DNA of 64,000 nt from Fodinibius salipaludis (GTDB lineage: Bacteria > Bacteroidota > Rhodothermia > Balneolales > Balneolaceae), in assembly GCF_002287075.1 (NCBI RefSeq), contig NZ_NSKE01000012.1, forward strand, positions 1 through 64,000, written 5' to 3'. The notes beneath the pieces were generated by a model. The model did no database searches. It had not been told where the DNA came from and was given only the letters and a program-made list of their open reading frames with translations. Positions 1 through 32,853 of this stretch are shown one piece after another (position 1 is the stretch's first letter; every line of letters begins with the position of its first letter). The position numbers were made by a program, and so were the translations under genes.

Positions 1-1572
1 TAACCATTCTAAACTTCTCATGCCCCCTATTTCTGAAGGTATACGGCCCGTTAACTTATTCCCTTTTACATTCAAATAGGTGAGCTTCGTCAGGTTTCCT
101 ATAGTGGACGGCAACTGTCCTTGCAGGCCATTCTTCCATAAGTCGAGTCGAACAACGCGTCCGTTGGCATCCACTTCTACGCCATGCCAGCTACCCGACG
201 GGTCGCCGCTGCCCCAGCCGCTGTTGTTAGCCCAACTGTCGCCGCCCGTGGCATTATATAAATCCATCAACGCATGGCGGTCGCCTTCTACTGAATTGGT
301 AACATTAGTCTCTGATTCGGTTGTAAAACTATAGATTGTGGACCAATTACCAGAATCTCCGTCTCCGTTGGCCTGGGCTCTCCAATAGTACGTCTGACTG
401 TAATCCAGTCCGGAAACAGCATACGACGCCTCGCTTACCGCTTTGTCAACCACCGTTGAAGAAAATGAATTATCCTGCGCAAGTTGAACTTGATATTCAT
501 TTACTCCTGACACCGATTCCCAATCTAATGTTAGGTTTATAGATTGACCAGTTGCCCCATCGGATGGAGAACTTAATGAGACCGTTGAATCATTGGTATC
601 ACTGGTTTCGCCTGAACTGGTAGTAAAGCTGTGAATTTCTGACCATTGTCCCTGCGTATCGCCGATAACAGCTCGTACTCTCGAGTAATAGGTCGTACCA
701 GAAGCCAATGCTTCCGAAGGAGAATAGGTAGTATCCGTTACTTTTGTTTCAATATCCATTTGGCTATCGTGACTTACATGCAATTCGTACGAATCTGCAT
801 TCTCTACGGCCTCCCATTCAAGGGTAGGTTGCAGTGCCACATCCGTTGATCCATCATCCGGGGACACTTGCACAGGAGCAGAAATTTCACCCGCGGCAAG
901 CGTTGCAAATTGAAATACCTCAGACCATTGGGTCTCTTCGCCAGAAACAACCGGCTCAACCCTCCAATAGAAGGTCTGTTCGGCAGATAACGCTGTCGTT
1001 TCATACGAGCTCGACTTTATTTCTTGGTCTATAACAAGAAGAGTGCTAAATTCTTGATCTGTAGCCACCTGTATATTATATCCAGATGCACTTGCTATGG
1101 CAGTCCAAGAAAACGCAACCGAGTAAGGACTTGTTGAAGTACTGTCGCTTGGTGAGGTTAAATCTGTTGCAAGCGGTTCGGCGTCCGCTATGGTTGATTT
1201 AGTAGAAAATTGCCAGGTTGCTGACCACGGTCCTTCTACTCCGTCAATAATAGAACGAACTTGCCAATAGAACGTTGAATCGGAAGGAAGCCCTTTAATT
1301 TGAAAATGATTTTCTTCCATCAAACTGTCAATCATAACAGTAGAAAAATCAAGGTTACCTGAAAGCTGAAACACATATGAATCTGCTTGATCAAGCAGAC
1401 TCCAGTCAAACTCAATAGTCGTAGTTTGTTCGGTGCCGTCTTCAGGGGAGGTTAAATTAACTTCAGATAAATCATTATTTTGAGTTGCGGTTATTGTTAA
1501 GGAATCTTCGCATTGGGTTAAAGTAACAAGCAAAAATATGCTCGTTAAGAGATATAGTAATTTTGATCTCAT
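1..1572 (-). CDS. FN3-repeat / leucine-rich-repeat surface lipoprotein, 3' end outside window
   Basis: Reading begins at the ATG complementary to 1570-1572 and stays open to base 1, giving 524 residues without a stop, so the C-terminus is missing. The N-terminus is a short basic stretch, a hydrophobic run and a lipobox ending at Cys21 (LTQC), which predicts an outer-membrane lipoprotein. Four FN3-like units of about 90-100 residues follow; each opens with a LTSP.DG or VSPDDG motif and ends with YWR/YSR...WS...F.T. After them comes the N-cap typical of secreted Bacteroidota LRR proteins (ALMDLYNATGGDSW, then SWHGV) and the first LRR units (LTKLTYLNVKGNKLTG.IP). The likely role is surface binding or adhesion; the ligand is unknown. 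Its reverse-strand shadows are not genes. Confidence 0.88.
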   Translation of the reverse strand, partial: MRSKLLYLLTSIFLLVTLTQCEDSLTITATQNNDLSEVNLTSPEDGTEQTTTIEFDWSLLDQADSYVFQLSGNLDFSTVMIDSLMEENHFQIKGLPSDSTFYWQVRSIIDGVEGPWSATWQFSTKSTIADAEPLATDLTSPSDSTSTSPYSVAFSWTAIASASGYNIQVATDQEFSTLLVIDQEIKSSSYETTALSAEQTFYWRVEPVVSGEETQWSEVFQFATLAAGEISAPVQVSPDDGSTDVALQPTLEWEAVENADSYELHVSHDSQMDIETKVTDTTYSPSEALASGTTYYSRVRAVIGDTQGQWSEIHSFTTSSGETSDTNDSTVSLSSPSDGATGQSINLTLDWESVSGVNEYQVQLAQDNSFSSTVVDKAVSEASYAVSGLDYSQTYYWRAQANGDGDSGNWSTIYSFTTESETNVTNSVEGDRHALMDLYNATGGDSWANNSGWGSGDPSGSWHGVEVDANGRVVRLDLWKNGLQGQLPSTIGNLTKLTYLNVKGNKLTGRIPSEIGGMRSLEWL

Positions 1573-2751: not shown

Positions 2752-3768
2752 CTATTCGAGGTCAGATACGATACTATCTACCATCCACCCATAAGCATTA
2801 AATGAACCTTCATGCCATTCTAAATTACAATCCCAGTAGCCCTCACAATCTTCGATAAAACCTGAAGGGGGAAAACCATAACTAATTTCAACAATCAATG
2901 GGGTTTCATTTTGAAAGACATAATCAATAGACAGACATTGGCTTTGGAGCTTTTCTGCAATATCAAGTGAAAGACTGATTGTTTTAAGATCAAAATGATG
3001 TTTTTCGTATTGGGCATTTCCACTCCCCGAGGCCCTAAAATCATCCTGCCTTACTATACGTTTAATCGCAAATGCTCGACCATCAATCACAATTACACGA
3101 ATATCATAATTATTTCCAGGTATAAAATCCTGGAAATAAACATATCCCCGCTCCCGTCCAGCGATACGCGCAAACTTTGTGGTCTTACCAAGCCTGAGTA
3201 CACCCTTCATGACCCCCCAGAGACTCGTTTTACCTTTTTTATATTTCTGCCATCGTTCGTGAAGGTTACCCAACTTATCGTACTGGCTAAAGCCTCGGCC
3301 AAAAGCTTTCTTTATTAGATTTTTCGCTTCTGACTCATTTGATACTAATTTAACATGTGCCGATCCTGCTCCTCTTCGCAATTTAAACACTTTTGGGAAA
3401 TCCGTCTCTTCTATCCACTGCATTGCTCGTGGTTTATCGTAAAATACATATGATGGAACCAAAGGGGCATCAATAGCTTCCAACAAATATTTTTGTCCCA
3501 CCTTGTCATCAAAATGCCAGCAGGTATGAAAATCAGGAAATACCTTTTTTCCTGCTTTCTCCAAAGAATACAACAATTGTTTCGCAAACAATACATCTTT
3601 GGGATTTGATTGATGAAAATGCCACATCAGCCCTTTGCAATCTTCCAACTGATTAATAATATCATTATCGTAACAATTCACAATCTTTAAAGGAAACCCC
3701 TGTTCTTCACAATAGGAAATCCAATGACTGCTGAAACTATTTTTTTGATGATGTATGGCAATTTTCAT
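2752..3768 (-). CDS. ATP-grasp family ligase, RimK/LysX-like
   Basis: This 338-residue protein has an ATP-grasp layout. A pre-ATP-grasp N-terminal region covers about residues 1-115. The nucleotide-binding lysine segment FPKVFKLRRGAGSAHV lies near 125-140. YVYFQDFIPGNNYDIRVIVI lies near 210-230. The metal-binding end is SIDYVF...PLIVEIS near 275-290. Members of this superfamily join an acid to an amine or thiol through an acyl phosphate. Here the substrate is unknown, and the setting suggests polysaccharide or lipid decoration. It follows a truncated paralogue and a sigma-54-controlled lipoprotein gene, and is probably the last gene of that transcript. Confidence 0.85.
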   Translation of the reverse strand: MKIAIHHQKNSFSSHWISYCEEQGFPLKIVNCYDNDIINQLEDCKGLMWHFHQSNPKDVLFAKQLLYSLEKAGKKVFPDFHTCWHFDDKVGQKYLLEAIDAPLVPSYVFYDKPRAMQWIEETDFPKVFKLRRGAGSAHVKLVSNESEAKNLIKKAFGRGFSQYDKLGNLHERWQKYKKGKTSLWGVMKGVLRLGKTTKFARIAGRERGYVYFQDFIPGNNYDIRVIVIDGRAFAIKRIVRQDDFRASGSGNAQYEKHHFDLKTISLSLDIAEKLQSQCLSIDYVFQNETPLIVEISYGFPPSGFIEDCEGYWDCNLEWHEGSFNAYGWMVDSIVSDLE

Positions 3769-4014: not shown

Positions 4015-4683
4015 CTATCTCTCTACAAATGTAATTACGGTCTGAATTTCAGGAGGAGTTGCTGCGATTACCGCATATTTTATCCCCGGGCCGTATTCGA
4101 AATCAGTGTATCCATTTTCTACTGTTTCCAAGATTGTTTTGACCTTTTCAAAATCAAAATTCGGTTTTCCATCCTCAGTTTTGAATGCTTCCGGTAAATC
4201 TTCCGATTTCACATCTTCTAATTCAAACTTTGGATGCGTCTGCAGTGACCATATTGCAATCTGAAACTCACGCCAGGTAAGCTCAGGATCATCCTTTTTC
4301 AAATCATCTGCGATGTTAAATAAGTAGTTAACTGGTCTCCATTTATCAACCCGATAGGTAGAATAGAGTGGTACATTTTCATAAGTGCCACTATCTAAAT
4401 CCAGAGGAGTTCGAATATCAATACACCAACTATCCTTGATGCCATTATCAATAATATCATTAGCTTCAATATTTTTAAATTGAATACTAAAATATGCTTG
4501 CTGAGCTTCGTTCCTCTTAACAACTATAGTTGTTTCCTCTCCTCCAGTGACTGGTGTAACTTCTTCTATTAGTTCAAGTGTATCTTTAATATCGCCATCG
4601 GTTGAGTTCTTTTTACAGGAAACAGCTACTATCAACAAACTGGCAAGTAAACAGTAGATGAAGCGGTTCTTTATTGGATTCAT
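4015..4683 (-). CDS. small lipoprotein with putative Cys-Gln thioester (TED/TQXA-like) domain
   Basis: The protein has 222 residues with a lipoprotein signal ending at Cys23 (VAVSC). The rest is one domain related to the N-terminal half of the protein at 18922-20046: W-C87-I-D, then PLYST, W..VNYLFN, D-D-P-E-L-T-W-R-E-F-Q141-IAIWSL and a trailing F.FEKVKTIL segment. An aromatic-Cys-x-[DE] motif paired with [TE]-h-Q-x-x-h-W is the signature of internal-thioester adhesion domains, in which Cys and Gln side chains crosslink and then react with target amines or hydroxyls. That the bond forms here is inference. A sigma-54-type promoter lies 54 bases upstream. An ATP-grasp fragment and an intact ATP-grasp gene follow. 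Confidence 0.8.
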   Translation of the reverse strand: MNPIKNRFIYCLLASLLIVAVSCKKNSTDGDIKDTLELIEEVTPVTGGEETTIVVKRNEAQQAYFSIQFKNIEANDIIDNGIKDSWCIDIRTPLDLDSGTYENVPLYSTYRVDKWRPVNYLFNIADDLKKDDPELTWREFQIAIWSLQTHPKFELEDVKSEDLPEAFKTEDGKPNFDFEKVKTILETVENGYTDFEYGPGIKYAVIAATPPEIQTVITFVER

Positions 4684-4736
4684 TTTTTACCTCAGTGAAT
4701 TTAATTGCATCGTTTTACTTTATACTAACTATAGTC

Positions 4737-4752
4737 TCAACTATTGTGCCAA
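4737..4752 (-). promoter_or_regulatory. sigma-54-type promoter of lipoprotein/ATP-grasp operon
   Basis: On the minus strand the sequence is TTGGCACAATAGTTGA. The -24 element TGGCAC is perfect, followed by five bases and TTGA in the -12 position. The start codon of the lipoprotein at 4683 is about 54 bases downstream. Confidence 0.65.
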
Positions 4753-4933: not shown

Positions 4934-6034
4934 TCAACGTTTATTATCGTCACCTAAAACATACTCACTAAAAAAAGGACCAAAGCGGGCTTCAATTATA
5001 TCAAAGAAAGGATTATTCGCATTCCACTCGATAATTTTCGGTTCTTCTTGCTCATTTACAAAAATATCCCACCCAATTACCCTGGTATAAGGAAAACTGT
5101 GATGCACAGATTTACACAAAGAAATTATAGCGGGTAAAAAAGGTAGTTTAAGATCAGAATAAAGCATTCCTGTATCAGGATGTCTCTTTCCAATTTCCAA
5201 ACCAATGCTATCAAAGGCAGTGGGGTGTACTGTTCCATCGATATTAACAAAAACCCAGCCGCCCCCACGTGAAGCGTTATCAACACGGCTACCTTCTCTT
5301 CCAAACCTGATAATAATAAACTTAACTTGTATAGTCCCCTCATCATCAAGTAGCGTTAGAACCCGCAAAGTATTCACGGAGTGGGGATATAGCTTCTGTA
5401 GCTCTGGATGTTGTTGAACAACCGGTTGAAAGATTAAATCCGTACTTTTTGGCAGTTTTTCAAAATGTAATTCATCTGGATGGGTAAATATTATTCCCTG
5501 CCCTCCACGACCAGAATCAGGTTTTATTATAATTTCATCATTGACTTCTTGCAGAATCTGATCAAGCTCTTCCTGCTTGAGTACCGTACCATCTTTATGA
5601 TAATACTGGCCGTTTGTTCTCGTAAAAAATGGATCTACAACAGCTCCATTAAAGAGTTTGTGATCTATTGCTTTTGCCTCGCTAAATCTCATATATTTTT
5701 CGGGATTCATTTTGGGCAAAAATTTGAACCGATAATAGTCATCAGGCATCCATCCTTTTTTAAATTCACCACGTAATTCAGCATAGTATGCCAACCACGG
5801 CCAATAAGATGCATCGCCTAATACCTCAGCACAATACGCTTTAATCTCAGAACGCATTTTTTTATCAACTACTGTTTTACCGGTATGCGCAACAACTTGT
5901 TTTCTTAGATTATTAGCCGCATCTCTCGACATTTTCGTCGCAACATATTTCTTCCAGGAATGATCGACTCGTTCCAGCATAAGCCGCAATCGATACAGAA
6001 TTTTAGTTGATTTGCTATATATTTCTTTTCTCAT
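4934..6034 (-). CDS. sugar-transfer-associated ATP-grasp protein
   Basis: This 366-residue protein has the ATP-grasp fold variant found beside exopolysaccharide genes (ATPgrasp_ST type). The ATP-binding segment IIIKPDSGRGGQGI lies near residues 183-196. SVNTLRVLTLL comes next, then a glycine-rich NASRGGGWVFVNIDG loop. The metal/acid end is GWDIFVN...PKIIEWNANNP near 325-345. The N-terminal 120 residues are helical and basic. The family is named for its neighbourhood; its reaction is unproven but is expected to be an ATP-dependent ligation that modifies a glycan or its carrier. It is the last gene of the nine-gene operon, 16 bases after a second member of the same family. Confidence 0.85.
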   Translation of the reverse strand: MRKEIYSKSTKILYRLRLMLERVDHSWKKYVATKMSRDAANNLRKQVVAHTGKTVVDKKMRSEIKAYCAEVLGDASYWPWLAYYAELRGEFKKGWMPDDYYRFKFLPKMNPEKYMRFSEAKAIDHKLFNGAVVDPFFTRTNGQYYHKDGTVLKQEELDQILQEVNDEIIIKPDSGRGGQGIIFTHPDELHFEKLPKSTDLIFQPVVQQHPELQKLYPHSVNTLRVLTLLDDEGTIQVKFIIIRFGREGSRVDNASRGGGWVFVNIDGTVHPTAFDSIGLEIGKRHPDTGMLYSDLKLPFLPAIISLCKSVHHSFPYTRVIGWDIFVNEQEEPKIIEWNANNPFFDIIEARFGPFFSEYVLGDDNKR

Positions 6035-6050
6035 ATCTCAATAAATATGG

Positions 6051-7169
6051 TTATTGCAAAGTCCAGTGATTTTTTCTACAGTACTCAATAACTTCATCAG
6101 TAAATTCTCCAAAAAATGGTTCCCCAGCGTACTGCGAGAAACGGATTGTATGTCCCTTTGTATTCACCTCAACAACTCTCCATCTGCCGTCTTTATCAAA
6201 ACACAAGTCCAATCCTACAACTCGGCCAAAATAAACTTGCCGAGCAATGTTTTTCGAAAGCTCTTTTAAGCTTTTGAATTCCGGGATTTTATCATCAAAG
6301 GCCAACCCTGAATCAGGATGCTTTAAATATTTTGTGCCATGTTTATCCACCGCATAACCATTTAACGATCCATCATCTCGTATCATCGTATGGATCCCAC
6401 CTGAACTCTCGTTGTCAAGTGACCCTCCCTTACCCATCCTCAGCGTTGCATTCAAGATATAGTGAGTATCATCACTAACAGATTTATAGACATACGCCCG
6501 AACGGTATTTAGTCCCACCGGGTGATATCGTTCAAAAAAAGGATGTTGTTGTATTTGTTCCTGAACAACAAAATTTTTACGCTCCCTGCAGAGCTCAAAC
6601 AGATGATCGGCATCTTCAACAAAACAGATCCCACTACCGCCGTAGGTATCTTTATTAGGTTTCAATACAACGGGAAAATTGATCTCTCCTAAACTTTTCT
6701 TAAGCTGACTTAAGCTAAGTTTATTAAAATCACAATCGTAGTATTCACCCTGAATGCGATGAAAAATATCTTTTGGGAATCCAGAATTGAGAAACCAACG
6801 GTTATAAAAGCTTTTATGGCTAAAAAAATGAAGTATATTATCATTTATTAAAGTTGGTTCCAGATCAGCAGCGAAAATATCTTCTGGAATAATTCGGGAA
6901 TCTGTTGTTCCAGAAATATTATGGCACACTCTGAGCGTGGTTAAATCAGCTTTCTTTCGAAATGTTGACCACTTCCTCTGGTGCTTAGATTCAATTGATG
7001 AATCACAGGGTTGGTCAAGAAATTTATTCACTTCTAAAATTCTTTGATATCTATTTTGCCATGCTTTACCTACCCCTCTTCTCCGTGATAAATATAGGAG
7101 CAAACTTTTAATTTTATTTTTAGAATCCAGACGCGAATTTATAAAAATATTTTTTATGATCTCTACCAT
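6051..7169 (-). CDS. sugar-transfer-associated ATP-grasp protein (second copy)
   Basis: This 372-residue protein shares its layout with the next gene downstream. VVLKPNKDTYGGSGICFV is the ATP-binding segment. GLNTVRAYVY follows, then a GSLDNESSGGIHTMI loop and VGLDLCF...WRVVEVNTKGH as the metal-binding end. Divergence from its neighbour is high, so the two probably act on different substrates or as a pair rather than being a recent duplication. It starts seven bases after the deacetylase-like gene ends, so translation is probably coupled. The role in glycan decoration is inferred from context. Confidence 0.84.
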   Translation of the reverse strand: MVEIIKNIFINSRLDSKNKIKSLLLYLSRRRGVGKAWQNRYQRILEVNKFLDQPCDSSIESKHQRKWSTFRKKADLTTLRVCHNISGTTDSRIIPEDIFAADLEPTLINDNILHFFSHKSFYNRWFLNSGFPKDIFHRIQGEYYDCDFNKLSLSQLKKSLGEINFPVVLKPNKDTYGGSGICFVEDADHLFELCRERKNFVVQEQIQQHPFFERYHPVGLNTVRAYVYKSVSDDTHYILNATLRMGKGGSLDNESSGGIHTMIRDDGSLNGYAVDKHGTKYLKHPDSGLAFDDKIPEFKSLKELSKNIARQVYFGRVVGLDLCFDKDGRWRVVEVNTKGHTIRFSQYAGEPFFGEFTDEVIEYCRKNHWTLQ

Positions 7170-14024: not shown

Positions 14025-14921
14025 TTAATTTACTAATTCTTTAATCTTTTGGTAAAACGACCTTTTTTTATATCGGCTTAGATCTATTTCCCCATCAAAA
14101 CGGTATCCCAATTTATGCGCCAATACGAGGGCCTGGGGATGTTCAAATATTTTCTCCCACTCAATTCTGGAAGAGGATCTATGATGATAGTTATCATACT
14201 TTGTATTAAGTCTGTCAAGCATCTTCTCATCATAATTAAGACTCATAAACGCCAACATCTCAATTAAAGTAATTCTATTAATCTCTTTACTCTCTTCGAA
14301 TAAGTTTTCAAATTTGAGGGAATAAAATGGAACGCTGGAATATCTTTGCTTTATTTCTAGTGCCCGAAGGTTAATTTCTGCCCAGTAATAAAGCGATTTT
14401 TCAAAGAGGCTTAAATTATCCCATCTACTTCTATATTCGCTCAAAATTGCAGAATCATCAAAAGGAGTCAGTTCTGCCTTTTCAAATCGATCTTCAACTC
14501 TACCGGTATACCAATTATGGGTTACAAGTGAAGCAGCAACATTTACAGGATTCCGATATAAATGAATCAGTTTCAATTGTTTTCCAAATCTTTCATGTAA
14601 TTCAGAAATTCCTGCAATACTCTGCCAACCAATTTCGATATAATGCCTGTTCTGTATTGTTTCATCAACAAATTCTAAATGATTATCCAAAATGATATTT
14701 CCTTTTGTTACTGCCGGTCGATCATATATCCCCAGATTTTTTCTTGGATAGTATTCATACTTTATAGGTTCATGGAGCACAATAGCCTCATCACCGTAGG
14801 TGTCACTTATATTTTTAGCAATCCATTGAGTGCCACATCTGGGCGTGCATAAGAATACAGTCACAGGATATACCCTGTTAGTCATATTCTTTGGATAATA
14901 TTTTAAGCCCTTGGTAGTCAT
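14025..14921 (-). CDS. sulfotransferase family protein, first gene of nine-gene operon
   Basis: This 298-residue protein shows the two PAPS-binding elements of sulfotransferases. The 5'-phosphosulfate loop is VFLCTPRCGTQWIAKNI near residues 22-38. The 3'-phosphate strand is LKLIHLYRNPVNVAASLV near 135-152. It probably transfers sulfate to the polysaccharide or a glycolipid. An internal ATG at residue 13 (14885) would place the loop nearer the N-terminus and is an alternative start. A sigma-54-type promoter lies about 80 bases upstream, making this the leading gene of an operon that ends at 4934. Confidence 0.85.
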   Translation of the reverse strand: MTTKGLKYYPKNMTNRVYPVTVFLCTPRCGTQWIAKNISDTYGDEAIVLHEPIKYEYYPRKNLGIYDRPAVTKGNIILDNHLEFVDETIQNRHYIEIGWQSIAGISELHERFGKQLKLIHLYRNPVNVAASLVTHNWYTGRVEDRFEKAELTPFDDSAILSEYRSRWDNLSLFEKSLYYWAEINLRALEIKQRYSSVPFYSLKFENLFEESKEINRITLIEMLAFMSLNYDEKMLDRLNTKYDNYHHRSSSRIEWEKIFEHPQALVLAHKLGYRFDGEIDLSRYKKRSFYQKIKELVN

Positions 14922-14998
14922 TCGAGGATCAGCATCTTATTTTTCATTAGAATTGAACATTAGTACCAACTATCTCCCTTTTCATATAATGATTAACT

Positions 14999-15014
14999 AC
15001 AATAGTTGTGCCAA
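14999..15014 (-). promoter_or_regulatory. sigma-54-type promoter of the nine-gene glycan operon
   Basis: The minus strand reads TTGGCACAACTATTGT: a perfect TGGCAC -24 element, five spacer bases and TTGT at -12. The sulfotransferase ATG lies about 78 bases downstream. Confidence 0.7.
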
Positions 15015-16215: not shown

Positions 16216-17331
16216 TTATGTTTTATAAATTTGATACCCGCATTTTTCCATGAATGTATTCATCGAATTTACGACCTCACCATTCTTATAATACCAATCG
16301 TGATAAAGTGAATTACTCGTATCATAATTATCAATATTCACCTCTTTTTCGGGCTTTTCACACATAAATTCCAACACCCAGGTTTCACTTCCATTAGAAG
16401 TCCCGTTTATATTATTGAATACTATCCTATTTCCGGTTCCGCCCATTAAGTGTTTGATAGTTGTTGCCAACAAGTCAACTCCTGTGGCATGTTTGATGAG
16501 TCTCCACATGTGGCAACCGTCCAGCCTTGGCGTCACTTCTATTAGCTTAGGTTCTTTATTTCCCTTCAATTTGATTTGAAAATAAACCGGTCCATTTTTA
16601 ATGCCGATGCGATCAGTAACCTCCACCATCAATTGATGAATTCGACTCTTACTTTCTTCAGTCATAAATTGAGATGGGAAACGATGCTTATTAATGATTC
16701 CCCCTGAAAATTCAGACCAAACAATGCGATCACTGATAAAGGAAAAACAGATCTCTCCATCTACTATATAGGCATTAATAGAAATCTCAGGACCTTCTAT
16801 ATATTCTTCAACAATTAAACGTTTACTCTTCGAATATCTCAGGGAAGTCGAAAATTTCTCAACAAAATCTCTTCTATTTTTAATTAAAAATACTCCTCTT
16901 TGTCCCTGACTGTCTACCGGCTTCAAAATAAACGGATATGAGAATTCAGTCATATCAGACGTCCCTTCCAAAACCCTATATTTCACATTCCAATCTAATG
17001 TACTTAATCGAGCTCTAAGCAGATCTTTATTATGACAAACTCTGGCAATTTCAGGTGTAATGAATGAAGGCAATTTTAATTTATTACTCACAATGGCAGC
17101 AGTCACCATTCCCAAATCGGACCCAACAGAATAAATAATATCAATACCCTCTAACTTCGCATACTTAAAAACCGACTGTTCATCTTTTATATCTATCTGC
17201 TCAAAAGTATCAACGAACTCTTTACCTGCTCCCTCAGATGAGTAACTCACAGCATGAATTACATGGTCACCGGATAGCATTCTTATCAGATCTGCCTGAG
17301 CATTCCCAATTCCTAAAACTAAAAACTTCAT
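16216..17331 (-). CDS. ATP-grasp protein, carbamoyl-phosphate-synthase-like
   Basis: This 371-residue protein has a Rossmann pre-domain (VLGIGNAQADLIRML) and then a CPSase/biotin-carboxylase-type ATP-grasp core. FILKPVDSQGQRGVFLI lies near residues 129-145, LIVEEYIEGPEISINAYIV near 175-193, and the metal-binding PKLIEVTPRLDGCHMW near 265-280. These enzymes activate a carboxylate and couple it to an amine. It is enclosed by two sugar epimerase genes in one operon, which suggests formation of an amide or amino-acid substituent on a sugar. That is inference. Confidence 0.85.
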   Translation of the reverse strand: MKFLVLGIGNAQADLIRMLSGDHVIHAVSYSSEGAGKEFVDTFEQIDIKDEQSVFKYAKLEGIDIIYSVGSDLGMVTAAIVSNKLKLPSFITPEIARVCHNKDLLRARLSTLDWNVKYRVLEGTSDMTEFSYPFILKPVDSQGQRGVFLIKNRRDFVEKFSTSLRYSKSKRLIVEEYIEGPEISINAYIVDGEICFSFISDRIVWSEFSGGIINKHRFPSQFMTEESKSRIHQLMVEVTDRIGIKNGPVYFQIKLKGNKEPKLIEVTPRLDGCHMWRLIKHATGVDLLATTIKHLMGGTGNRIVFNNINGTSNGSETWVLEFMCEKPEKEVNIDNYDTSNSLYHDWYYKNGEVVNSMNTFMEKCGYQIYKT

Positions 17332-17402: not shown

Positions 17403-18482
17403 CTATTTCGCCAGAGCAGATTCTGTATATTTAGTCTTATTCGCTGGAATTCCATCCTTTATCCAATACAAGTCATCATTTAGCTGACCGGTGCTAAGTA
17501 AAAATTTCAGCTGCTTAAGACGCGTATACGGCTTTGCATTAAAGGTTTCCTCATCCAGGTCAATTTGATTAAAGACCTTATAAAGTTCTTGCGCCCCTTT
17601 TTCTGCATTGTATTCACACGAAAAGCCGGGCAGCTGTGAATTTATTTTATCGAATGAAACGCGATAGCTTCGGTTATCTCCGCCACTGTCGCCAAAGGTC
17701 GTTTTACACCCTGGAAAAGCTGCACCAACGATTTCAGCAATCTCTCTGACTCTAAAATTTTCCTCAGTATCCCCCACATTAAACACTTGGTTATGAATAA
17801 TCTCTCTCGGGGCCTCGAGTGCACACCAAAATGCTTTACTTATATCTCTGATATGAACAAGCGGTCTCCACGGCATCCCGTCACTAATCATCTCAATAAC
17901 TCCTGTGGTCCATGCGAGTCCCGAAAGGTTATTCAGTACGATATCAAAACGCATTCTGGGTGAAGCACCATAAGCAGTAGCATTTCTCAAGAAGGTCGGT
18001 GAAAACGTATCATCAGCTAATTTCGAAACATCCCGCTCAACCCTGGTTTTACATTCGGCATAAGCGGTCTGGGGATTAACCTCTGATTCTTCTGTTTTGT
18101 AATCACTATTTCCCGCACCATAAACACTACAGGAAGAAGCATAAACAAAACGTTCAATACCCGCCTGTTTGCACAATTTTGCAATCCGCACACTTCCCTT
18201 GTGATTTATTTTATAGGTGATATCCGGATTCAATTTTCCAAGGGGATCGTTTGAGAGCTCAGCGAGGTGTACAACAGCATCAAAACCTTCCAGATCTTCA
18301 ACTTCGATCTCTCTTAAATCTTTATTGATATAAGATGGGTATACCTTTTCTCCATTATTAAAAAGCCATCCGGCCCTGTAAAATCCCGTATCAAGACCTG
18401 TTACGCTATGACCTTTTTGTATTAAATATGGTCCCAAAACTGACCCGATGTATCCATCTGTACCTGTTACTAATACTTTCAT
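17403..18482 (-). CDS. NAD-dependent sugar epimerase (extended SDR)
   Basis: From the ATG at 18482 the protein has 359 residues and opens MKVLVTGTDGYIGSVLGPYL, the NAD-binding Gly-x-x-Gly-x-x-Gly motif. A slightly longer frame (start 18494, MGMIMKV) exists, but the shorter start places the glycine motif at the usual position. The catalytic YAECK lies near residue 136 after SSCSVYGAG. GDTEENFRV and SYRVSFDK follow in the substrate domain. It begins the three-gene operon driven by the sigma-54-type promoter at 18600-18615. The nucleotide-sugar substrate is not determinable here. Confidence 0.88.
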   Translation of the reverse strand: MKVLVTGTDGYIGSVLGPYLIQKGHSVTGLDTGFYRAGWLFNNGEKVYPSYINKDLREIEVEDLEGFDAVVHLAELSNDPLGKLNPDITYKINHKGSVRIAKLCKQAGIERFVYASSCSVYGAGNSDYKTEESEVNPQTAYAECKTRVERDVSKLADDTFSPTFLRNATAYGASPRMRFDIVLNNLSGLAWTTGVIEMISDGMPWRPLVHIRDISKAFWCALEAPREIIHNQVFNVGDTEENFRVREIAEIVGAAFPGCKTTFGDSGGDNRSYRVSFDKINSQLPGFSCEYNAEKGAQELYKVFNQIDLDEETFNAKPYTRLKQLKFLLSTGQLNDDLYWIKDGIPANKTKYTESALAK

Positions 18483-18599
18483 AATCATTCCCATTTATAG
18501 TTAGCAGCACCATCTTAATATCCGTGAAATATGAGACAGCACTTTTATTGATAGTTATAGCCCCTCTCATTTTCGAGACCTACGTTTATCAGTAGATAT

Positions 18600-18615
18600 T
18601 CAATAAATGTGCCAA
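18600..18615 (-). promoter_or_regulatory. sigma-54-type promoter of the epimerase/ATP-grasp operon
   Basis: The minus strand reads TTGGCACATTTATTGA. The -24 element is perfect and -12 is TTGA. The epimerase ATG at 18482 is about 120 bases downstream. Confidence 0.65.
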
Positions 18616-18807: not shown

Positions 18808-18823
18808 GTGGTACAAATATTGT
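18808..18823 (+). promoter_or_regulatory. sigma-54-type promoter of the thioester-like lipoprotein gene
   Basis: GTGGTACAAATATTGT: TGGTAC at -24, five bases, TTGT at -12. The lipoprotein ATG at 18922 lies about 99 bases downstream. Confidence 0.6.
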
Positions 18824-18921
18824 GATAGGTATAATAACACGTGGTTTTTCTACGGTTATATATAATGTGGTTCAAATCGCCAATAACTAACAATTACTTT
18901 AACTATATAAAGGGAGTACAA

Positions 18922-20046
18922 ATGAAAATGATCAGTAAATGTTTATCAATGATATTATTAGCAGGAATTGCTTTAAGTCTATCTTCCTGTGAACAGAGCT
19001 CACAAGTTAATTTGAGCGAAAGTTTTAAACACATTAAAACGGTAACACCTATTCAGGGAGCACAGAAAACTACAATGAGTCTGGAGGCCGAGGTCAATCC
19101 AAGCAGCTTTTTTGAAGTCACACTCGAAGATGGATCTGTCAGAGAGGGATGGTGCGTTGAATATAATGACGACTATGTTAAGGGAGAACAAAAGGGAGTC
19201 AAATTGTACTCCACCAAAGGCCACCCGGCATGGGAAACGCTTAATTATTTCATGAGCATCAAAGACCAGCTGAGGATGGATGATCCCTCGTTGACATACC
19301 GGGAAATTCAGGTGATCATCTGGTCACTTATTGATAATCCATCATTTGATATAGATAAAATAAATGAATACGGGCATATGCCTTCAAGTATCTATAGTAA
19401 CGGCGAAGCTCATTTTGATGTGCAAAAGGTTAAAGATATCGTAGCTGATATTCATAGTCGTAAGGCTGACTCTCAGTTTAAGACCTTAGCAAATCAACAG
19501 GGTGTAACGCTGATTCAAAATGACGGACAAACCATTATGATGGGTGACGAAACAGCCTTTGCTGTAAAAACGGTTGCTCAAAATGGTGACCCCAGCGTTG
19601 ATGCTGACTACTCCACCTGTTTTGATGAAGAGATCATTGCGAACGTCTCATTCAACAGATGGGGATGGACCAACGGTCCAATATCTGAAGGTAGCGGAGA
19701 ACAGACGTATGATATATATGCAGGTGCTGGCCAATGTGATTTAAGCAAAGGTACCCTGGTTGGCCAATTAACCGCTAACTATGCCAATGGCACGTTGACG
19801 GTAACATATCGCATAACAGAAGAATCATTTTTCACGAATGAGCTCTATACCTTATTGGAAACACACCTTTTCGTAGGATCAGCTCCTTACCCACAAATGA
19901 ATAATAACAAATACACGGTTGCACCTGGTCAATATGGCAACCAAAATTCACATGATAATATTACCGAGTATACTTATGAAGTCAGCGGACTATCAGGAGA
20001 TATTTATTTTATAGCCCATTCTGTGATAAATGGATTTGGTCAGTAA
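18922..20046 (+). CDS. two-domain lipoprotein with putative Cys-Gln thioester domain and C-terminal secreted-protein domain
   Basis: The ATG at 18922 is chosen because GGGAG stands just upstream and a lipoprotein signal follows at once (Cys23, LSSC); an upstream in-frame extension would bury it. The protein has 374 residues. Residues 45-190 match the lipoprotein at 4015-4683: W-C78-V-E, LYST, W..LNYFM, DDPSLTYRE-I-Q130-VIIWSL. Cys78 and Gln130 occupy the positions expected of an internal-thioester adhesion domain. Residues about 215-374 form a separate module (FNRWGWTNGPIS, DIYAGAGQCD, GTLVGQLT, YTVAPGQY, YEVSGLSGDIYFIAH) of a type I associate with secreted Bacteroidota proteins. It is the only plus-strand gene inside the glycan locus, with its own sigma-54-type promoter and a terminator. 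Confidence 0.85.
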   Translation: MKMISKCLSMILLAGIALSLSSCEQSSQVNLSESFKHIKTVTPIQGAQKTTMSLEAEVNPSSFFEVTLEDGSVREGWCVEYNDDYVKGEQKGVKLYSTKGHPAWETLNYFMSIKDQLRMDDPSLTYREIQVIIWSLIDNPSFDIDKINEYGHMPSSIYSNGEAHFDVQKVKDIVADIHSRKADSQFKTLANQQGVTLIQNDGQTIMMGDETAFAVKTVAQNGDPSVDADYSTCFDEEIIANVSFNRWGWTNGPISEGSGEQTYDIYAGAGQCDLSKGTLVGQLTANYANGTLTVTYRITEESFFTNELYTLLETHLFVGSAPYPQMNNNKYTVAPGQYGNQNSHDNITEYTYEVSGLSGDIYFIAHSVINGFGQ

Positions 20047-20137: not shown

Positions 20138-21238
20138 TTAAAGCTGCTCCTGAATGGTCTTAAGTATCCGGTATGTTGCCTTCCCATCCCACTTATCTGG
20201 TATAGATCCTTTCTTATATTGTCCCTCTCTTATGGAACCTATAACTCGCTTTATTTCATCCAAATCAAAAGGTACCAGTGTGTTGGTTCCAACCTCTATA
20301 GTAGATGGGCGCTCGGTATTCGGTCGCAGCGTTAAACACGGAACTCTTCGAAATGTTGATTCTTCCTGGATACCGCCACTGTCGGTAAGAATAAACTCAC
20401 AACTGGCGATAAGCTTTTGGAAAGCAAAATAATCCATCGGTTCAGTCAATATCACATTCTTATTTTGAGCTAATCGATCATACAGTTCAAACTCTTTTAG
20501 TTTATTGACGGTTCGGGGATGAATAGGAAAAACAAGCTTTTGGGTCTCGGTAATTTCTTCAATTAAGTGAATTAACTTAAACAACTCATCCTTATAATCC
20601 ACCGTTGCCGGTCGGTGCATAGTCATAAGAACGAACGAGCCTTTTTCCAGTCCCAGTTTCTCCAGAATAGGCGATTGTTCTATTTCATCCTCAAAAGCTA
20701 CCATAGTATCAATCATGGTATTGCCAACAAAGAATAGCTGTTCTTCTGTCTTGCCATTACCATTGAGATTGCGCATTCCACTTTCTTCGGTGATGAATAA
20801 ATAATCTGAAATCTCATCGGTCAAAATACGGTTAATCTCTTCCGGCATAGTTCGATCTCCGCTACGTAATCCGCTTTCTACATGGGCCAGCGGAATGTCC
20901 ATTTTATTGGCTGTGAGCGATGCTGCAAAAGTTGAATTCACATCTCCCGTTACAAGAATAATATCAGGTTTTACCTCTTTCACTACCGGTTCCAAACGCT
21001 TCATAACTTCTGCCATCTGGTTGTTCGGCGACGATGGTGGAATCTCTAAAAAATAGTCCGGTGTTAATTCAAACTGCTTAAAGAAAACATTGGCCATCTT
21101 ATTGTCATAATGTTGCCCGGTATGTACAATCTTGATATTAAACTCTCCCGGAAAATCCTGCTCTGCTACTTTTTTAAACTGCGTAACCTTAATAAAATTT
21201 GGCCGCGTCCCCACTATAATCAATAGGTTCTTCATCAT
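20138..21238 (-). CDS. wecB: UDP-N-acetylglucosamine 2-epimerase (non-hydrolysing)
   Basis: This 366-residue enzyme interconverts UDP-GlcNAc and UDP-ManNAc in the cytoplasm. Family motifs are clear: GTRPNFIK at the N-terminus, HTGQHYDNKMANVF near residue 40, HVESGLRSGDRTMPEE near 117 with catalytic acids, and DSGGIQEES near 287 for UDP binding. It is the last gene of the fcl operon, 34 bases after the UDP-sugar dehydrogenase gene. Together these two can supply a mannosaminuronate or related HexNAc-uronate. A second Met one codon later is an equally good start. Confidence 0.93.
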   Translation of the reverse strand: MMKNLLIIVGTRPNFIKVTQFKKVAEQDFPGEFNIKIVHTGQHYDNKMANVFFKQFELTPDYFLEIPPSSPNNQMAEVMKRLEPVVKEVKPDIILVTGDVNSTFAASLTANKMDIPLAHVESGLRSGDRTMPEEINRILTDEISDYLFITEESGMRNLNGNGKTEEQLFFVGNTMIDTMVAFEDEIEQSPILEKLGLEKGSFVLMTMHRPATVDYKDELFKLIHLIEEITETQKLVFPIHPRTVNKLKEFELYDRLAQNKNVILTEPMDYFAFQKLIASCEFILTDSGGIQEESTFRRVPCLTLRPNTERPSTIEVGTNTLVPFDLDEIKRVIGSIREGQYKKGSIPDKWDGKATYRILKTIQEQL

Positions 21239-21272
21239 ATAATAAATTGGTTAATCTCTATACTCAACAGTA

Positions 21273-22673
21273 CTACGCTTTCCATATTTGATTACTGGTA
21301 CGCGGATTCACGTCTTTCATGGCATTGCGAGTATCAATGATCACATCATTCCAATCAGCCAGCTCTTGGTAATTAATATCAGAATGGTTGGTTGAAATGA
21401 TCACCGCATCAAAACTGGAAATCGTTTCTTCATCCCATGCCACCGTCTTTAATCCGGTCCATTCTTTATGTTCTCTCGTTTCCCAGATTTCAGGAATATA
21501 GTGATCATAATAAGAGACATTTGCCCCATATTCTTTTAGCAAATCCATTAGCTTAAAGGTAGGCGATTCTCTCAGATCATCGACATCCGGCTTATAGGCA
21601 AGACCGACAATCAGTACATCACTTCCATTAACAGGTTTGTAATGTGCATTAAGTGCTTTAATGGTTCGTTCAATTACATAATCAGGCATACTTGTATTAA
21701 TTTCACCGGCCAGCTCGATAAAGCGTGTGTTTTGCTCATATTCCCGAGCTTTCCATGTCAAATAAAAAGGATCAATAGGAATACAGTGTCCGCCCAAACC
21801 GGGACCGGGTGTAAACTTCATAAATCCAAAAGGTTTCGTTGCAGCGGCATCCAACACTTCGTGGATATCAATTCCCATCTCTTGGAAGACAACTTTGAGT
21901 TCATTTACCAAGGCAATATTTACAGAACGAAAAATATTTTCGGTAAGCTTCACCGCTTCGGCTGTTTTGTTGTTAGAAACGGCTACGGTCTCTACAACTA
22001 TTGCATCGTATAGTGAACAGGCTACCGCAAGAGCGTCGGCCCCATCAGCTCCAACTACCTTTGGAATTTTTGCCGTATTAAAATTCGGATTTCCGGGATC
22101 TTCGCGCTCCGGGCTATACGCTACAAAGAAATCCTTCCCTGACTTCATCCCCGAAGCCTTTTCTAAAGTCGGAATAATAAGCTCATCTGTTGTTCCGGGA
22201 TATGAGGTGGATTCCAATATTATCAACTGCCCTTTCTGAATATGTTTGGCAATCGCTTGAGTAGTTTGCTCAACATACTGCATATCCGGCTCGCGATAGG
22301 GGTTCAGCGGCGTAGGCACACACATGATAATCGCATCCATTTCCCGGAGTTTGGAAAAACTGATCGTCGCTGAACATCGATCAGATTCCGCCAGCTTTTC
22401 CATCATATCATACCCAAGATGCTTTATATAAGGTGTACCACTCTCGATATTATCTATTTTGTCCTGATCCACATCAAAACCTACCACCGGAAATGCCTTT
22501 TCATGGAACGTCCACATTAGCGGCAGTCCAACATAGCCAAGACCAATAATTCCTATCTTGGCCGTTCTGTTTTGAATCCGATTAATAAAATCGTTTCGTA
22601 ATTCAACAACAGGTTTGGATTTTGCAGTTCCTTTGTTATTGGATGTAATTGGAAAGTTTGGAATAGTCTTCAT
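21273..22673 (-). CDS. UDP-N-acetyl-hexosamine 6-dehydrogenase (WbpA/WecC type)
   Basis: This 466-residue enzyme oxidises C6 of a UDP-HexNAc to the uronic acid with two NAD. It has [13 protein letters not shown] near residue 40 after an unusually long polar leader, [14 protein letters not shown] in mid-domain, [10 protein letters not shown], the catalytic Cys297 in [13 protein letters not shown], and [18 protein letters not shown] in the C-terminal domain. The sequence resembles WbpA (UDP-GlcNAc dehydrogenase) more than UDP-glucose dehydrogenase. Its first 38 bases overlap the end of gmd, indicating tight coupling. With wecB next to it, the product may be UDP-ManNAcA or UDP-GlcNAcA. Confidence 0.9.
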
Positions 22674-23736
22674 CTTTATTATTTATTATCAGATTAATTT
22701 TTTCTTGGTCTTCACGAACCATCTCTTCAACAAGTCCTTCAAACGTATATTTGGGCGTCCACCCTAACTTTTGTCGCGCTTTAGTGGCATCCCCAATAAG
22801 CAGGTCCACTTCGGTAGGACGAAAATAGCGGGGATCGATTTCTACAATCACATCGCCCGTTTCGGTGTTGATCCCTTTTTCGTCAATTCCTTCACCAATC
22901 CATTCGATCGTAATACCGGCATGATGGAAGGCCAGCTCACAAAACTCTCTTACACTATGCGTAACACCTGTGGCCAATACCAGATCTTCGGGGTCATCCT
23001 GCTGAAGCATCAGGTACATGCCTTCAATATAATCTTTGGCATGTCCCCAGTCCCGTTTGGCTTCCAGATTACCGAGGTAGGTCTTTTCCTGCAAGCCAGC
23101 AGCAATACGAACAGCAGCTCGGGTAATTTTTCGAGTTACAAACGTTTCACCGCGAACCGGTGATTCGTGATTAAATAGAATACCGTTTACCGCATACATG
23201 TCATATGCTTCACGATAGTTCACCGTAATCCAGTAAGCATAAAGCTTGGCAACACCATATGGTGAGCGCGGATAAAATGGTGTTGATTCTTGCTGTGGTA
23301 CTTCCTGTACCTTTCCATAGAGCTCGCTTGTCGAAGCTTGGTAAAATTTCGTTTGGTCTGTCATACCCAGTATCCGGATTGCTTCCAACAGTCGTAGCAC
23401 ACCCATAGCATCTACGTCGGCCGTATATTCGGGAGCTTCAAAAGAAACCTGCACATGACTTTGGGCAGCCAGATTATAAATCTCATCGGGTTGGGTTTCC
23501 TGAATAATGCGAATCAAATTTGTAGTATCTGTCAGATCACCATAGTGCAAATGAAACGGTAACTCATCGGCGTGAGGATCTTGGTAAATATGGTCTATAC
23601 GTCCGGTATTAAATGAACTTGATCGCCTTTTAATACCGTGAACTTCATATCCCTTTTGCAGCAAAAATTCCGCCAGATATGAACCATCCTGTCCCGTAAT
23701 ACCCGTAATTAATGCGACTTTCTTGTTCTCTTTCAA
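22636..23736 (-). CDS. gmd: GDP-mannose 4,6-dehydratase
   Basis: This 366-residue protein catalyses the first step from GDP-mannose to GDP-L-fucose. [19 protein letters not shown] gives the NADP-binding motif. [22 protein letters not shown], the YGVAK catalytic pair near residue 160 and [16 protein letters not shown] are hallmarks of GMD. It lies between fcl and the UDP-sugar dehydrogenase gene in the operon. The C-terminal tail of about 20 residues, rich in Asn and Lys, overlaps the next gene and is longer than usual. Confidence 0.95.
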
Positions 23737-23772
23737 AGCATCCCTCCTTGTTTATTTAAAACTAATTTCATG

Positions 23773-24720
23773 TTATAACTTTATTTCCTTTAGCTGATTA
23801 ATATTCTGCAGGAACCAGCGATAGGTTTCCATAAGCCCATCTTGCAACTCTTTACTATGCTTCCATCCCAGAGAATGCAACTTTGAAACATCCAGCAATT
23901 TTCTTGGAGTCCCATCGGGCTTGGAGGTATCCCAAATTATTTCTCCCCGATGACCAATAATCTTTTGTATTAGGTAGGCCAATTCTTTGATTGAGATATC
24001 TTTACCCGTTCCCACGTTGTAAATATCTCCCTTAATCTCATTCTCTACCGCAAACAAAATGGCTTCTGCCATATCCTGAACATGAAGAAATTCCCTTTTG
24101 GGCTTCCCTGTCCCCCACAACTTTACCGGGGTATGACCATTTTCAGCTGCTTCATGGAACTTCCTGATCATCGCGGGTACCACATGAGAAGACTTCAGAT
24201 CAAAATTATCTCGGGGACCATATAGGTTTGTCGGCATCAGAGATACATAATTGCGACCGTACTGACGATTCAATGCTTCACACAGTTTTATTCCCGTAAT
24301 TTTGGCAACAGCATACCACTGGTTGGTGGGTTCTAAAGAACCCGTTAATAAATAGTCTTCTTTTATAGGTTGCTTGGCATGTTTGGGATAGATACACGAG
24401 CTGCCAAGAAAAATAAGCTGGTCAACATTATTTTCATGGGCCGCATTTATTACATTGCTCTGGATAAGCAGATTATCATACAAAAATGGATACGGGTTTT
24501 GGTCATTTACTAAAATTCCCCCAACCCTGGCAGCAGCTAAAACAATTACATCTGGCTGCTCCTCACTCATAAAATCTCTAACAGCTTGCTGATTACGCAG
24601 ATCCAATTCACTGCTCGACTTAGTAACTATATTCGAATAGCCGTTACTTTTAAAAATCTCCAGCACCGCTGCCCCAACCATGCCTCGATGACCTGCTATA
24701 TACACTTTTGTCTCTTTCAT
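23773..24720 (-). CDS. fcl: GDP-L-fucose synthase
   Basis: From the ATG at 24720 the protein has 315 residues. A longer frame adds 12 residues (start 24756), but the chosen start opens [19 protein letters not shown], the normal family beginning. It epimerises and reduces GDP-4-keto-6-deoxymannose to GDP-L-fucose. LAAARVGGI, the SSCIYP motif, YAVAKITG (catalytic Tyr-Lys) and LYGPRDNFD are visible. It heads the fcl-gmd-dehydrogenase-wecB operon and lies 47 bases from a sigma-54-type promoter. Confidence 0.95.
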
Positions 24721-24765
24721 ATTCTGTTTTACTATATAAATAACCGTTCCGTACACAACTTTGAT

Positions 24766-24781
24766 ACAATAACTGTACCAT
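24766..24781 (-). promoter_or_regulatory. sigma-54-type promoter of fcl-gmd-dehydrogenase-wecB operon
   Basis: The minus strand reads ATGGTACAGTTATTGT: TGGTAC at -24, five bases, TTGT at -12. The fcl ATG at 24720 is 46 bases downstream. Upstream, TTACCTGCTAAT (near 24820) resembles TTACTTGCTAAT in the 18.7 kb region. Confidence 0.6.
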
Positions 24782-30750: not shown

Positions 30751-30766
30751 TTGGCACATTTGTTGT
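30751..30766 (+). promoter_or_regulatory. sigma-54-type promoter of the degenerate AAA+ gene
   Basis: TTGGCACATTTGTTGT: a perfect TGGCAC -24 element, five bases and TTGT at -12. The chosen ATG at 30902 is about 136 bases downstream. Confidence 0.7.
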
Positions 30767-30901
30767 AACTAAGACATATAGAAAGAGAAGGACTCTTAGA
30801 AATACCCGGAAGTTTGACCATGAGATTATTTGCTTTGAAAATTGGTCAAATTCAATTTTGATCGGGGTTATCATATATCCACATACATATTTCTATATAT
30901 C

Positions 30902-31732
30902 ATGATTGTATCAAAAAATACTCTCAAAACCCAAAATGCCCTACCCAAAGACATAGAAAAATCTTTCACAAGTCTATTGATGCAAGATATTTACCACAAG
31001 GTTTTGCAGCTGGCTAAGCTCGACTCAAATATTCTGATCATTGGGGAAATTGGCTCTGGGAAAAAAAACATTGCCAAAATTATTCATCAAAATAGTAAGC
31101 GATCTACTAAACCTTTTTATTCATTCTATTGTGTAGACGTTAATGAAGATGATTATCAAGATAATTTTTGGGGACATCTTAACTTTGAAGAACGTCAACT
31201 TACGCTAAAATATAAGGCTTTAGAACAGACCCAAGGCGGTATTCTGTATTTAGATCAATTTTCAGAATTATCCCCAAAATATATGCTCAATATTCTTGCA
31301 TCCATAGATAAAGGAATTAACCAGCTATACCGCTTAGATAACACTTCGAGCCCCCGATTAATTCTTTCTTTTAACCAAGAATCATATCAAGATCTTACTA
31401 ATTCATCTATATGGGAAAAACTACTTGTCAAGTTAGATCCAGTAGTAATAATGCTGCCGCCCCTTCGCGAACGCAAAGAGGATATTCCCATCCTAATAAA
31501 TAATTTTATAGAAGAGTTTAAGGAGCAAAATGAAGGCTATAAGAATTTAAATATATCGCCTCAAGCCCTTTATAATTGCTTCAATTATAGCTGGCCGGGC
31601 AATATTCGTCAGCTTAAAAATGCAATATTGCAAGGAGCCATTCTTTCATTTGGTGAGACAATAAAATCGGAACACCTTCCATTTACGATGAACTGGGACC
31701 TCCCATATAAACTTAATAACAACAAGATATAA
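30902..31732 (+). CDS. degenerate sigma-54 activator-like AAA+ protein (pseudo-activator)
   Basis: Start 30902 is the first ATG; a TTG 60 bases upstream in frame is less likely. The 276-residue protein is one sigma-54-activator AAA+ domain. Fold markers are present: Walker A GEIGSGKK (48-55), GGILYLDQFSEL, PLRERKEDIPILI and WPGNIRQLKNAI. Key residues are lost. The catalytic Walker B Glu is Gln119. The GAFTGA loop that touches sigma-54 is replaced by NFEERQ after FWGHL. The Arg fingers of FREDLYYRL are Trp171 and Lys177. There is no receiver domain and no helix-turn-helix. It probably binds ATP poorly or without turnover and could cap or poison hexamers of a true activator. It faces the intact activator gene convergently. 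Confidence 0.82.
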   Translation: MIVSKNTLKTQNALPKDIEKSFTSLLMQDIYHKVLQLAKLDSNILIIGEIGSGKKNIAKIIHQNSKRSTKPFYSFYCVDVNEDDYQDNFWGHLNFEERQLTLKYKALEQTQGGILYLDQFSELSPKYMLNILASIDKGINQLYRLDNTSSPRLILSFNQESYQDLTNSSIWEKLLVKLDPVVIMLPPLRERKEDIPILINNFIEEFKEQNEGYKNLNISPQALYNCFNYSWPGNIRQLKNAILQGAILSFGETIKSEHLPFTMNWDLPYKLNNNKI

Positions 31733-31815
31733 TAAGAGTACTCCCCTTTTATTTAATACTCCTATTCAAAAATATTTCTTTGTATATAGTAAAAGCGAGT
31801 TTGTACAATATACAG

Positions 31816-32853
31816 CTAAGAAGTACTTTCTTGCGCTTCTTTCTCAGCCTCATACTTTGTTAATTTATTGTGTAGTGTTTTTCTACTGAAGCCCAAAATC
31901 TTAGCTGCTTCCGTTTTATTATTATCCACCGAATAAAGCGTATGATCAATAACTTTACGTTCGATTTCCTCTAAGCTTGTCCCAATAGGAATTTGAATTA
32001 TTTTGTCGTAAGCACTGCCTTTGGATACTGGATATATATTTTCTCCTCGATGAATTCGCGATGGAATAACATCAGGAGTAACCTCCTCTCCATCAGCAAG
32101 TACCACACTACGCTCAACAATATTTTTTAGTTCACGAACATTACCAGGCCAATCGTACGATAAAAACATCTCCATAATTTCCTCGGAGAATACAATTTCT
32201 TCGATGCCGTAGTTTTCCACAAAATGACTTTTATAAAAGTCTACTAATAACGGAATGTCTTCCTTTCTATGTCGGAGTGGTGGCACATATAATTCAATAA
32301 CATTCAATCTGTAAAAAAGATCTTCTCGAAAACTTCCGGATTGGACTTGGTCAAAAAGAACTTTATTTGTTGCTGATATCAAGCTTATATCAACATTAAC
32401 CTCTTCTTTGCCCCCAACTCGTCTAAATGATCCTAATTCCACAGCACGCAATAACTTAACCTGAACGGATTTGGGCATCTCACCAATTTCATCTAAAAAG
32501 AGAGTACTTTTGTGAGCTAACTCAAAGCATCCCTCTTTTCTGGCATGTGCTCCTGTAAATGCGCCCTTCTCATGGCCAAATAGTTCACTTTCAACCAACT
32601 CAGATGGAATAGCACCACAATTTATGGCTACTAACTCATTTTCGCTTCTATTGCTGTGGTAATGAACTAATTGAGCTAAGACTTCTTTCCCTGTTCCATT
32701 TTCCCCGGATATTAAAAGGGTTGCTTTCGTTTTAGCTACCTGCCTTACCTTGCCCAGCAAATCTTTCATAGTAGGATTTTGCGTAATAAAAACAGGCTTC
32801 TTGGATCCCTTTTTCTTATTAATATCATTATCACTTAACGAATTCTCCTCCAT
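31816..32853 (-). CDS. sigma-54-dependent transcriptional activator without sensory domain
   Basis: This 345-residue protein is a bacterial enhancer-binding protein. Only about 20 residues precede the AAA+ domain, so there is no receiver, GAF or PAS input; PspF has the same bare design. The core is complete: GENGTGKE (50-57), ELFGHEKGAFTGAHA, TLFLDEIGEM, SFREDLFYRLNV with both Arg fingers, PLRHRKEDIPLL and WPGNVRELKN. A Fis-type helix-turn-helix (KTEAAKILGFSRKTLHNKL) is at the C-terminus. It must be controlled by a partner protein or by its own level. It is the obvious candidate driver of the sigma-54-type promoters in this window. Confidence 0.93.
   Translation of the reverse strand: MEENSLSDNDINKKKGSKKPVFITQNPTMKDLLGKVRQVAKTKATLLISGENGTGKEVLAQLVHYHSNRSENELVAINCGAIPSELVESELFGHEKGAFTGAHARKEGCFELAHKSTLFLDEIGEMPKSVQVKLLRAVELGSFRRVGGKEEVNVDISLISATNKVLFDQVQSGSFREDLFYRLNVIELYVPPLRHRKEDIPLLVDFYKSHFVENYGIEEIVFSEEIMEMFLSYDWPGNVRELKNIVERSVVLADGEEVTPDVIPSRIHRGENIYPVSKGSAYDKIIQIPIGTSLEEIERKVIDHTLYSVDNNKTEAAKILGFSRKTLHNKLTKYEAEKEAQESTS

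Follow-up and report, generated by a model that had tools for sequence, protein, structure and literature searches.

Self-activated 'chemical glue' thioester domains (TEDs) are, to our knowledge, so far known from Gram-positive bacteria, and we found no later report of a Gram-negative TED in the literature searched. In known TEDs, the cysteine of the internal bond is carried by a [YFL]C-Phi-zeta motif and the bond glutamine by a PhiQ-zeta-Phi-Phi motif on the last strand, whereas the glutamine and tryptophan of a helical TQxxPhiW motif are unnecessary for the bond (PMC4450167, PMC6194298). The bonds reported are Cys138-Gln267 in CpTIE, Cys426-Gln575 in Cpa, Cys109-Gln261 in SfbI and Cys94-Gln247 in PnTIE. 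An inverted, membrane-proximal layout has been considered for the Gram-positive pLS20 TED protein and judged unlikely (PMC8092201). In Gram-negative bacteria, sigma-54 control has been described for PEP-CTERM proteins linked to exopolysaccharide (PMC1569441).

Here we analyse a 64,000-nucleotide stretch of DNA from Fodinibius salipaludis (hereafter, the window) that contains two lipoprotein genes with a predicted TED. Judged from structural models, these genes define a new TED family of lipid-anchored proteins in diderm bacteria, the Balneolota.

Two lipoproteins in a surface-polysaccharide locus

Both genes are enclosed by a block of surface-polysaccharide genes, which is laid out in the window as follows.

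1-1572, minus strand: lipoprotein with Fn3 and leucine-rich repeats (LRR), running past the window edge
2752-24756, minus strand: surface-polysaccharide gene block enclosing both predicted TED genes (glycosyltransferases, an EpsG-like protein, ATP-grasp ligases, epimerases and nucleotide-sugar enzymes)
2752-3768, minus strand: RimK-like ATP-grasp ligase
4015-4683, minus strand: short paralogue, a TED-only lipoprotein of 222 aa with Cys87, Gln141 and Gln214 (profile and sequence matches, model, structural alignment)
4934-6034, minus strand: ATP-grasp ligase associated with sugar transfer
6051-7169 and 16216-17331, minus strand: two similar-looking ATP-grasp-like genes
18922-20046, plus strand: two-domain lipoprotein P0001, 374 aa (ORF translation, AlphaFold model, structural matches)
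19564-20043, plus strand: C-terminal beta-rich domain of P0001, about residues 215-374 (weak structural matches only)

P0001 consists of a signal peptide with the lipobox LSLSSC (Cys23), a TED-type domain at about residues 36-212 and a C-terminal beta-rich domain. The preliminary description of this DNA had proposed a Gram-negative lipoprotein that carries a second domain and is encoded within a glycan locus, and all three points held: the lipobox and the beta-rich domain are present, and the gene is flanked by an NAD-dependent epimerase gene (17403-18494) on one side and by wecB-like and nucleotide-sugar genes (20138-24756) on the other. The W-C78-V-E and E-I-Q130-V-I-I-W segments on which that description was built, with 52 residues between Cys and Gln, were likewise found in the translated ORF.

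Searches of Pfam, NCBIfam and PDB sequences with P0001 gave no useful family match. With the full alignment as query, a PDB sequence search gave mainly nanobodies and antibodies; these matched the C-terminal domain, and we treated them as chance. The recurrence of P0001 residues 276-370, at 46% identity, in a protein of another genome (L022, G041) that was found without a TED match suggests that this beta-rich domain, which has no Pfam entry, is mobile. We found no LPXTG tail in P0001, which ends in VINGFGQ and has its lipobox at the N terminus, and no Pfam match in it to isopeptide or ester stalk domains.

The short paralogue is 30% identical to P0001 over P0001 residues 10-186. Among 58 related genomes, 21 contained members of the family, and a domain-profile search found 86 places in 34 of the 128 genomes of the order Balneolales. 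In a sample of the phylum, 7 of 296 genomes were positive, all in the source organism's own taxonomic family. In the genomes searched, the family is confined to Balneolales and close relatives; member records come from Fodinibius salsisoli, F. sediminis, F. roseus and Balneolales MAGs, and a few are titled Bacteroidetes, Rhodothermaceae or Chitinophagaceae MAG. A single-protein scan of a contig collection gave no match, and an alignment-based scan of the same collection found members; tblastn of plasmids with the paralogue as query gave no match. Members are either short TED-only lipoproteins or proteins with varied C-terminal parts, including HAF repeats.

Both TED genes are found again in the glycan loci of further Fodinibius genomes. 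In four of these (G002, G007, G010 and G011), the long TED gene has the same wecB-like, epimerase or methyltransferase neighbours, and in two (G009 and G021) its neighbours differ. The short TED gene is again part of the polysaccharide cluster in other Fodinibius, in most cases with a large lipoprotein of the Fn3/LRR type nearby (L044:7603-10188 and L045:9441-12332), comparable to that at 1-1572 on the minus strand of the window.

Comparison with solved thioester domains

The preliminary description had likened the N-terminal domain to TED/TQXA domains. Sequence profiles did not recover this likeness: P0001 had no TED/TQXA profile match, and nothing in the 58 relatives exceeded the curated cut-off of 22 bits for the Pfam TED family PF08341, for which the second-best place in these genomes was a family member (G021:C2) at 14.3 bits. 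Compared profile to profile (hhalign), the family showed no significant match to class II TEDs of the pLS20 type (Prob 0.24); the register of this alignment placed Cys on Cys and QxxxW on QxxxW.

Structural comparison did recover it. The AlphaFold model of P0001 has a mean pLDDT of 77 (moderate confidence), with Cys78 at the end of strand 73-78, Gln130 and Trp134 on helix 126-136 and strand 203-207 beginning with Gln203. With this two-domain model, Foldseek returned no TED among its first 50 matches, and in a second-look aligner the first 8 matches were all TEDs (Z 7.5-9.3), covering about residues 36-212 of the model. The model of the short paralogue is more confident (mean pLDDT 89, rising to about 96 in most of the mature domain; pTM 0.79). 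Its first 14 Foldseek matches were all TEDs (best E 4e-4, prob 1.00), and in VIA-align TEDs scored Z 8.4-10.6, with every chain of Z at least 5 being a TED. These matches spanned both TED classes (CpTIE, Cpa, SfbI and PnTIE; BaTIE and EfmTIE86).

Both predicted models show the beta-barrel and three-helix bundle of a TED. It could be argued that this match is a modelling artefact and that the proteins are ordinary lipoproteins of another fold, as there is no significant sequence match to a known family and the P0001 model is only moderately confident. However, TEDs were found with two separate models, one of them confident; the gap between TEDs and the next fold is large for the paralogue (Z of at least 8.4 against 2.5 for cyclin H); and the motifs sit on the correct secondary-structure elements. 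We consider an artefact highly improbable and the TED fold of both proteins well supported by the models, on which a family outside PF08341 combines the fold with the motifs of a TED.

The predicted bond partner of Cys78

Three residues of P0001 follow the motif order of TEDs.

19153-19155, plus strand: codon of Cys78, the predicted thioester cysteine, in W-C-V-E at a beta-strand end (invariant in 27 rows; present in 74 of 81 non-identical domain rows)
19309-19311, plus strand: codon of Gln130, in a helical TQxxPhiW-type motif and predicted not to be the bond partner (alignment, cited TED papers, model; kept in all 7 Cys-less rows)
19528-19530, plus strand: codon of Gln203, the predicted thioester partner, in D-G-Q-T-I-M on the strand after the helices (alignment, model, structural mapping, co-loss)

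In most rows the cysteine motif is W-C-[IV]-[DE], W replacing the Y, F or L of known TEDs; a few rows have Y or F. On the middle helix, the motif is xQxx[IVL]W; its T is not kept, and its Q and W (Gln130 and Trp134) are present in all 81 non-identical rows. The last-strand motif is of the VQTVI type in most rows and GQTIM in P0001, and its Gln maps to the position of the known bond glutamine.

This mapping was consistent across solved structures. Gln214 of the paralogue fell on the bond glutamine in four of four proteins, namely Gln267 of CpTIE (5a0g), Gln575 of Cpa, Gln261 of SfbI (5a0l) and Gln247 of PnTIE (5a0n), and Gln203 of P0001 fell on that of CpTIE (5a0g), Cpa (2xic, 2xid) and SfbI (5a0l). 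Positions were obtained by a gapless count back from the last aligned pair, the aligned ranges ending a few residues past the final Gln; the exact agreement in four proteins makes the gapless assumption reasonable over these last residues.

Conservation followed the same pattern. Eight positions were invariant across 27 aligned members: Cys23 of the lipobox, Trp77, Cys78, Ser97, Gln130, Trp134, Phe142 and Gln203. In the alignments, conservation of the motifs exceeds chance. Of the 74 Cys-bearing rows, 73 have the last-strand glutamine, 68 in the aligned column and 5 on inspection of the flanks, and the remaining row is cut by a contig end. The 7 rows that have Leu or Ser instead of Cys (L083, L131, L134, L135, L143, L144 and L146) provide a natural control. 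They are HAF-repeat-type lipoproteins that group together on one side of a single branch with support 100/95, and we read them as putative degenerate TEDs. The Gln203 equivalent is gone in 6 of the 7, L146 retaining the Gln without the Cys, whereas Gln130 and Trp134 are retained in all 7. Association of the Cys with the last-strand Gln gave a Fisher value of 2e-8 by rows, which represent one clade and hence few independent events. The cysteine is thus coupled to Gln203 and not to Gln130, because Gln203 was largely lost together with it while Gln130 was kept.

These data bear on the pairing first put forward, a thioester between Cys78 and Gln130. In its favour, neither residue varies among the first 27 rows, and solved TEDs place the corresponding Gln close to the bond cysteine. 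However, Gln130 aligns to the TQxxPhiW helix motif, which does not supply the bond partner in known TEDs; structural mapping favours Gln203; and the Cys-less rows kept the former and mostly lost the latter. We therefore regard a Cys78-Gln130 bond as very unlikely and predict, on the models, that the thioester partner of Cys78 is Gln203. It follows that the 52-residue spacing, taken in the preliminary description as a match to TEDs, was the wrong measure: the spacing from Cys78 to Gln203 is 125, compared with 129 in CpTIE.

Another explanation is that the domain has a TED-type fold but no working thioester, binds glycan or protein non-covalently and keeps Cys78 for some other reason. Fold alone shows no function, the Cys-less HAF-repeat clade indicates that the fold can persist without the bond, and, family-wide, conservation is higher for the Gln and Trp of the middle helix than for the Cys/Gln pair. 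By contrast, the Cys and last-strand Gln are kept together in every complete Cys-bearing row and were largely lost together, and one unpaired cysteine is usual in the domain, which would be unusual for an exported protein if it had no role. On balance, this explanation seems to us improbable, although less so than the Cys78-Gln130 pairing. The domain contains exactly one Cys in 65 of 81 rows, which fits a thioester and not a disulfide; because most domains have a single Cys, we discounted a disulfide role for Cys78.

Possible regulation, mechanism and relation to known systems

Sites of the sigma-54 type were found ahead of both TED genes and of several neighbouring genes.

4736-4751, minus strand: sigma-54-type site TGGCACAATAGTTGAG, 68 bases before the ATG of the short paralogue (upstream scoring)
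14998-15013, minus strand: exact sigma-54-type site upstream of a sulfotransferase-like gene, 14025-14921 (pattern scan)
18599-18614, minus strand: sigma-54-type site ahead of the divergent epimerase gene 17403-18494, with 1 mismatch (pattern scan)
18809-18824, plus strand: sigma-54-type site TGGTACAAATATTGTG, 113 bases before the ATG of P0001 (8 of 10 key bases)
24765-24780, minus strand: sigma-54-type site ahead of the nucleotide-sugar gene set 20138-24756, with 1 mismatch (pattern scan)
30842-31732, plus strand: protein with a sigma-54 activator domain, with an exact sigma-54-type site ahead of it at 30752-30767
31816-32853, minus strand: sigma-54 activator with a Fis-type HTH

Upstream regions were scored against TGGCAC-N5-TTGC (10 key bases), with random 353-base stretches as control. 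The preliminary description had given the P0001 gene a sigma-54-type promoter of its own. A site is indeed present and is backed by the upstream regions of its orthologues and paralogues, where 8 of 16 score 9/10, compared with 1.9% of random stretches; the focal site by itself is weak, as its score of 8 is reached by about 10% of random stretches. Genome-wide, the exact pattern TGGCAYN5TTGYA had 13 matches, compared with 3 for the reversed control. Eight of the 13 lie in the glycan locus or its regulators, 6 of them in a glycan gene block at C36:264-295 kb (G000:C36:264872-294531, loci L160 and L161) and 2 in the window (14998 and 30752). The end of contig C36 probably adjoins the start of C4, because a gene near this end (C36:293874) resembles the gene that another genome has after its short TED gene. 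The genome also contains rpoN, and the two activators lie nearby (30842-32853). These patterns suggest a dedicated sigma-54 regulon for surface polysaccharide, with which the TED genes may be co-expressed.

We consider it probable that P0001 and its paralogue are outer-membrane-type lipoproteins that bind a nearby nucleophile covalently through a thioester between Cys78 and Gln203. This internal bond, for which the paralogue would use Cys87 and Gln214, would arise after export with loss of ammonia, on strands flanking the bundle of helices; on the middle helix, Gln130 and Trp134 would adjoin the bond and support it without forming it. On contact with a target, an amine or hydroxyl nucleophile would attack the thioester carbonyl, leaving the lipoprotein linked through Gln203. 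The target is likelier to be near than a distant host receptor, because the N-terminal lipid would leave only about 15-25 residues between the domain and the membrane. Candidates near the cell's own surface are exopolysaccharide, a sister lipoprotein, or a matrix or surface protein such as the Fn3/LRR lipoprotein, a candidate TED partner. As a speculation, the ATP-grasp ligases of the glycan locus may add amino acids or amine-bearing groups to the polysaccharide. A more specific and distinctly tentative proposal is that the cell's own exopolysaccharide, under sigma-54 control, or a protein of its matrix is tethered covalently to the outer membrane by the TED lipoproteins, which would be a self-directed use of thioester chemistry in a diderm and a possible route by which a cell could fix its matrix there. 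More generally, the two TED-type lipoproteins suggest that this salt-loving Fodinibius may be able to attach its surface covalently to something.

Similar to the proteins described here, PEP-CTERM/EpsH proteins are exported, are encoded in exopolysaccharide loci and have sigma-54-type promoters and activators (PMC1569441). By contrast, the present proteins are lipoproteins in which no PEP-CTERM tail was seen, and the genome gave only a below-cut-off match to the exosortase profile. We found no paper, in the literature searched, that links PEP-CTERM proteins to internal thioesters. Some Gram-negative PEP-CTERM proteins have C...QxAIW-like motifs, so TED-like domains may occur elsewhere in Gram-negative bacteria.

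Class II TEDs (BaTIE, SaTIE, EfmTIE86 and pLS20 TIE) resemble the new domains in their core lobe (6fwv, Z 10.3; 6fwy, Z 8.9) but contain an inserted seven-stranded beta-sandwich that is missing here: in the paralogue model, helix 178-194 and strand 202-207 are 7 residues apart. The closest counterparts are the class I TEDs of TIE proteins (SfbI, Cpa, CpTIE and PnTIE; PF08341), with which the family shares the predicted fold, the Cys strand before the helical bundle, QxxPhiW on the middle helix, the predicted bond Gln on the last strand and the lack of a large beta-sandwich inserted after the last helix and before the final hairpin. It differs from them in having W before the Cys instead of Y, F or L, no T before the helix Gln and no sequence-profile match above the cut-off. 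TIE proteins have a C-terminal sortase anchor, with the TED at the tip, whereas the proteins described here have an N-terminal lipid anchor, no recognised isopeptide stalk, diderm hosts and a TED that would be membrane-proximal. With the Balneolota lipoprotein family, thioester chemistry would reach a diderm lineage and would include a layout that is inverted, with the domain near the membrane.
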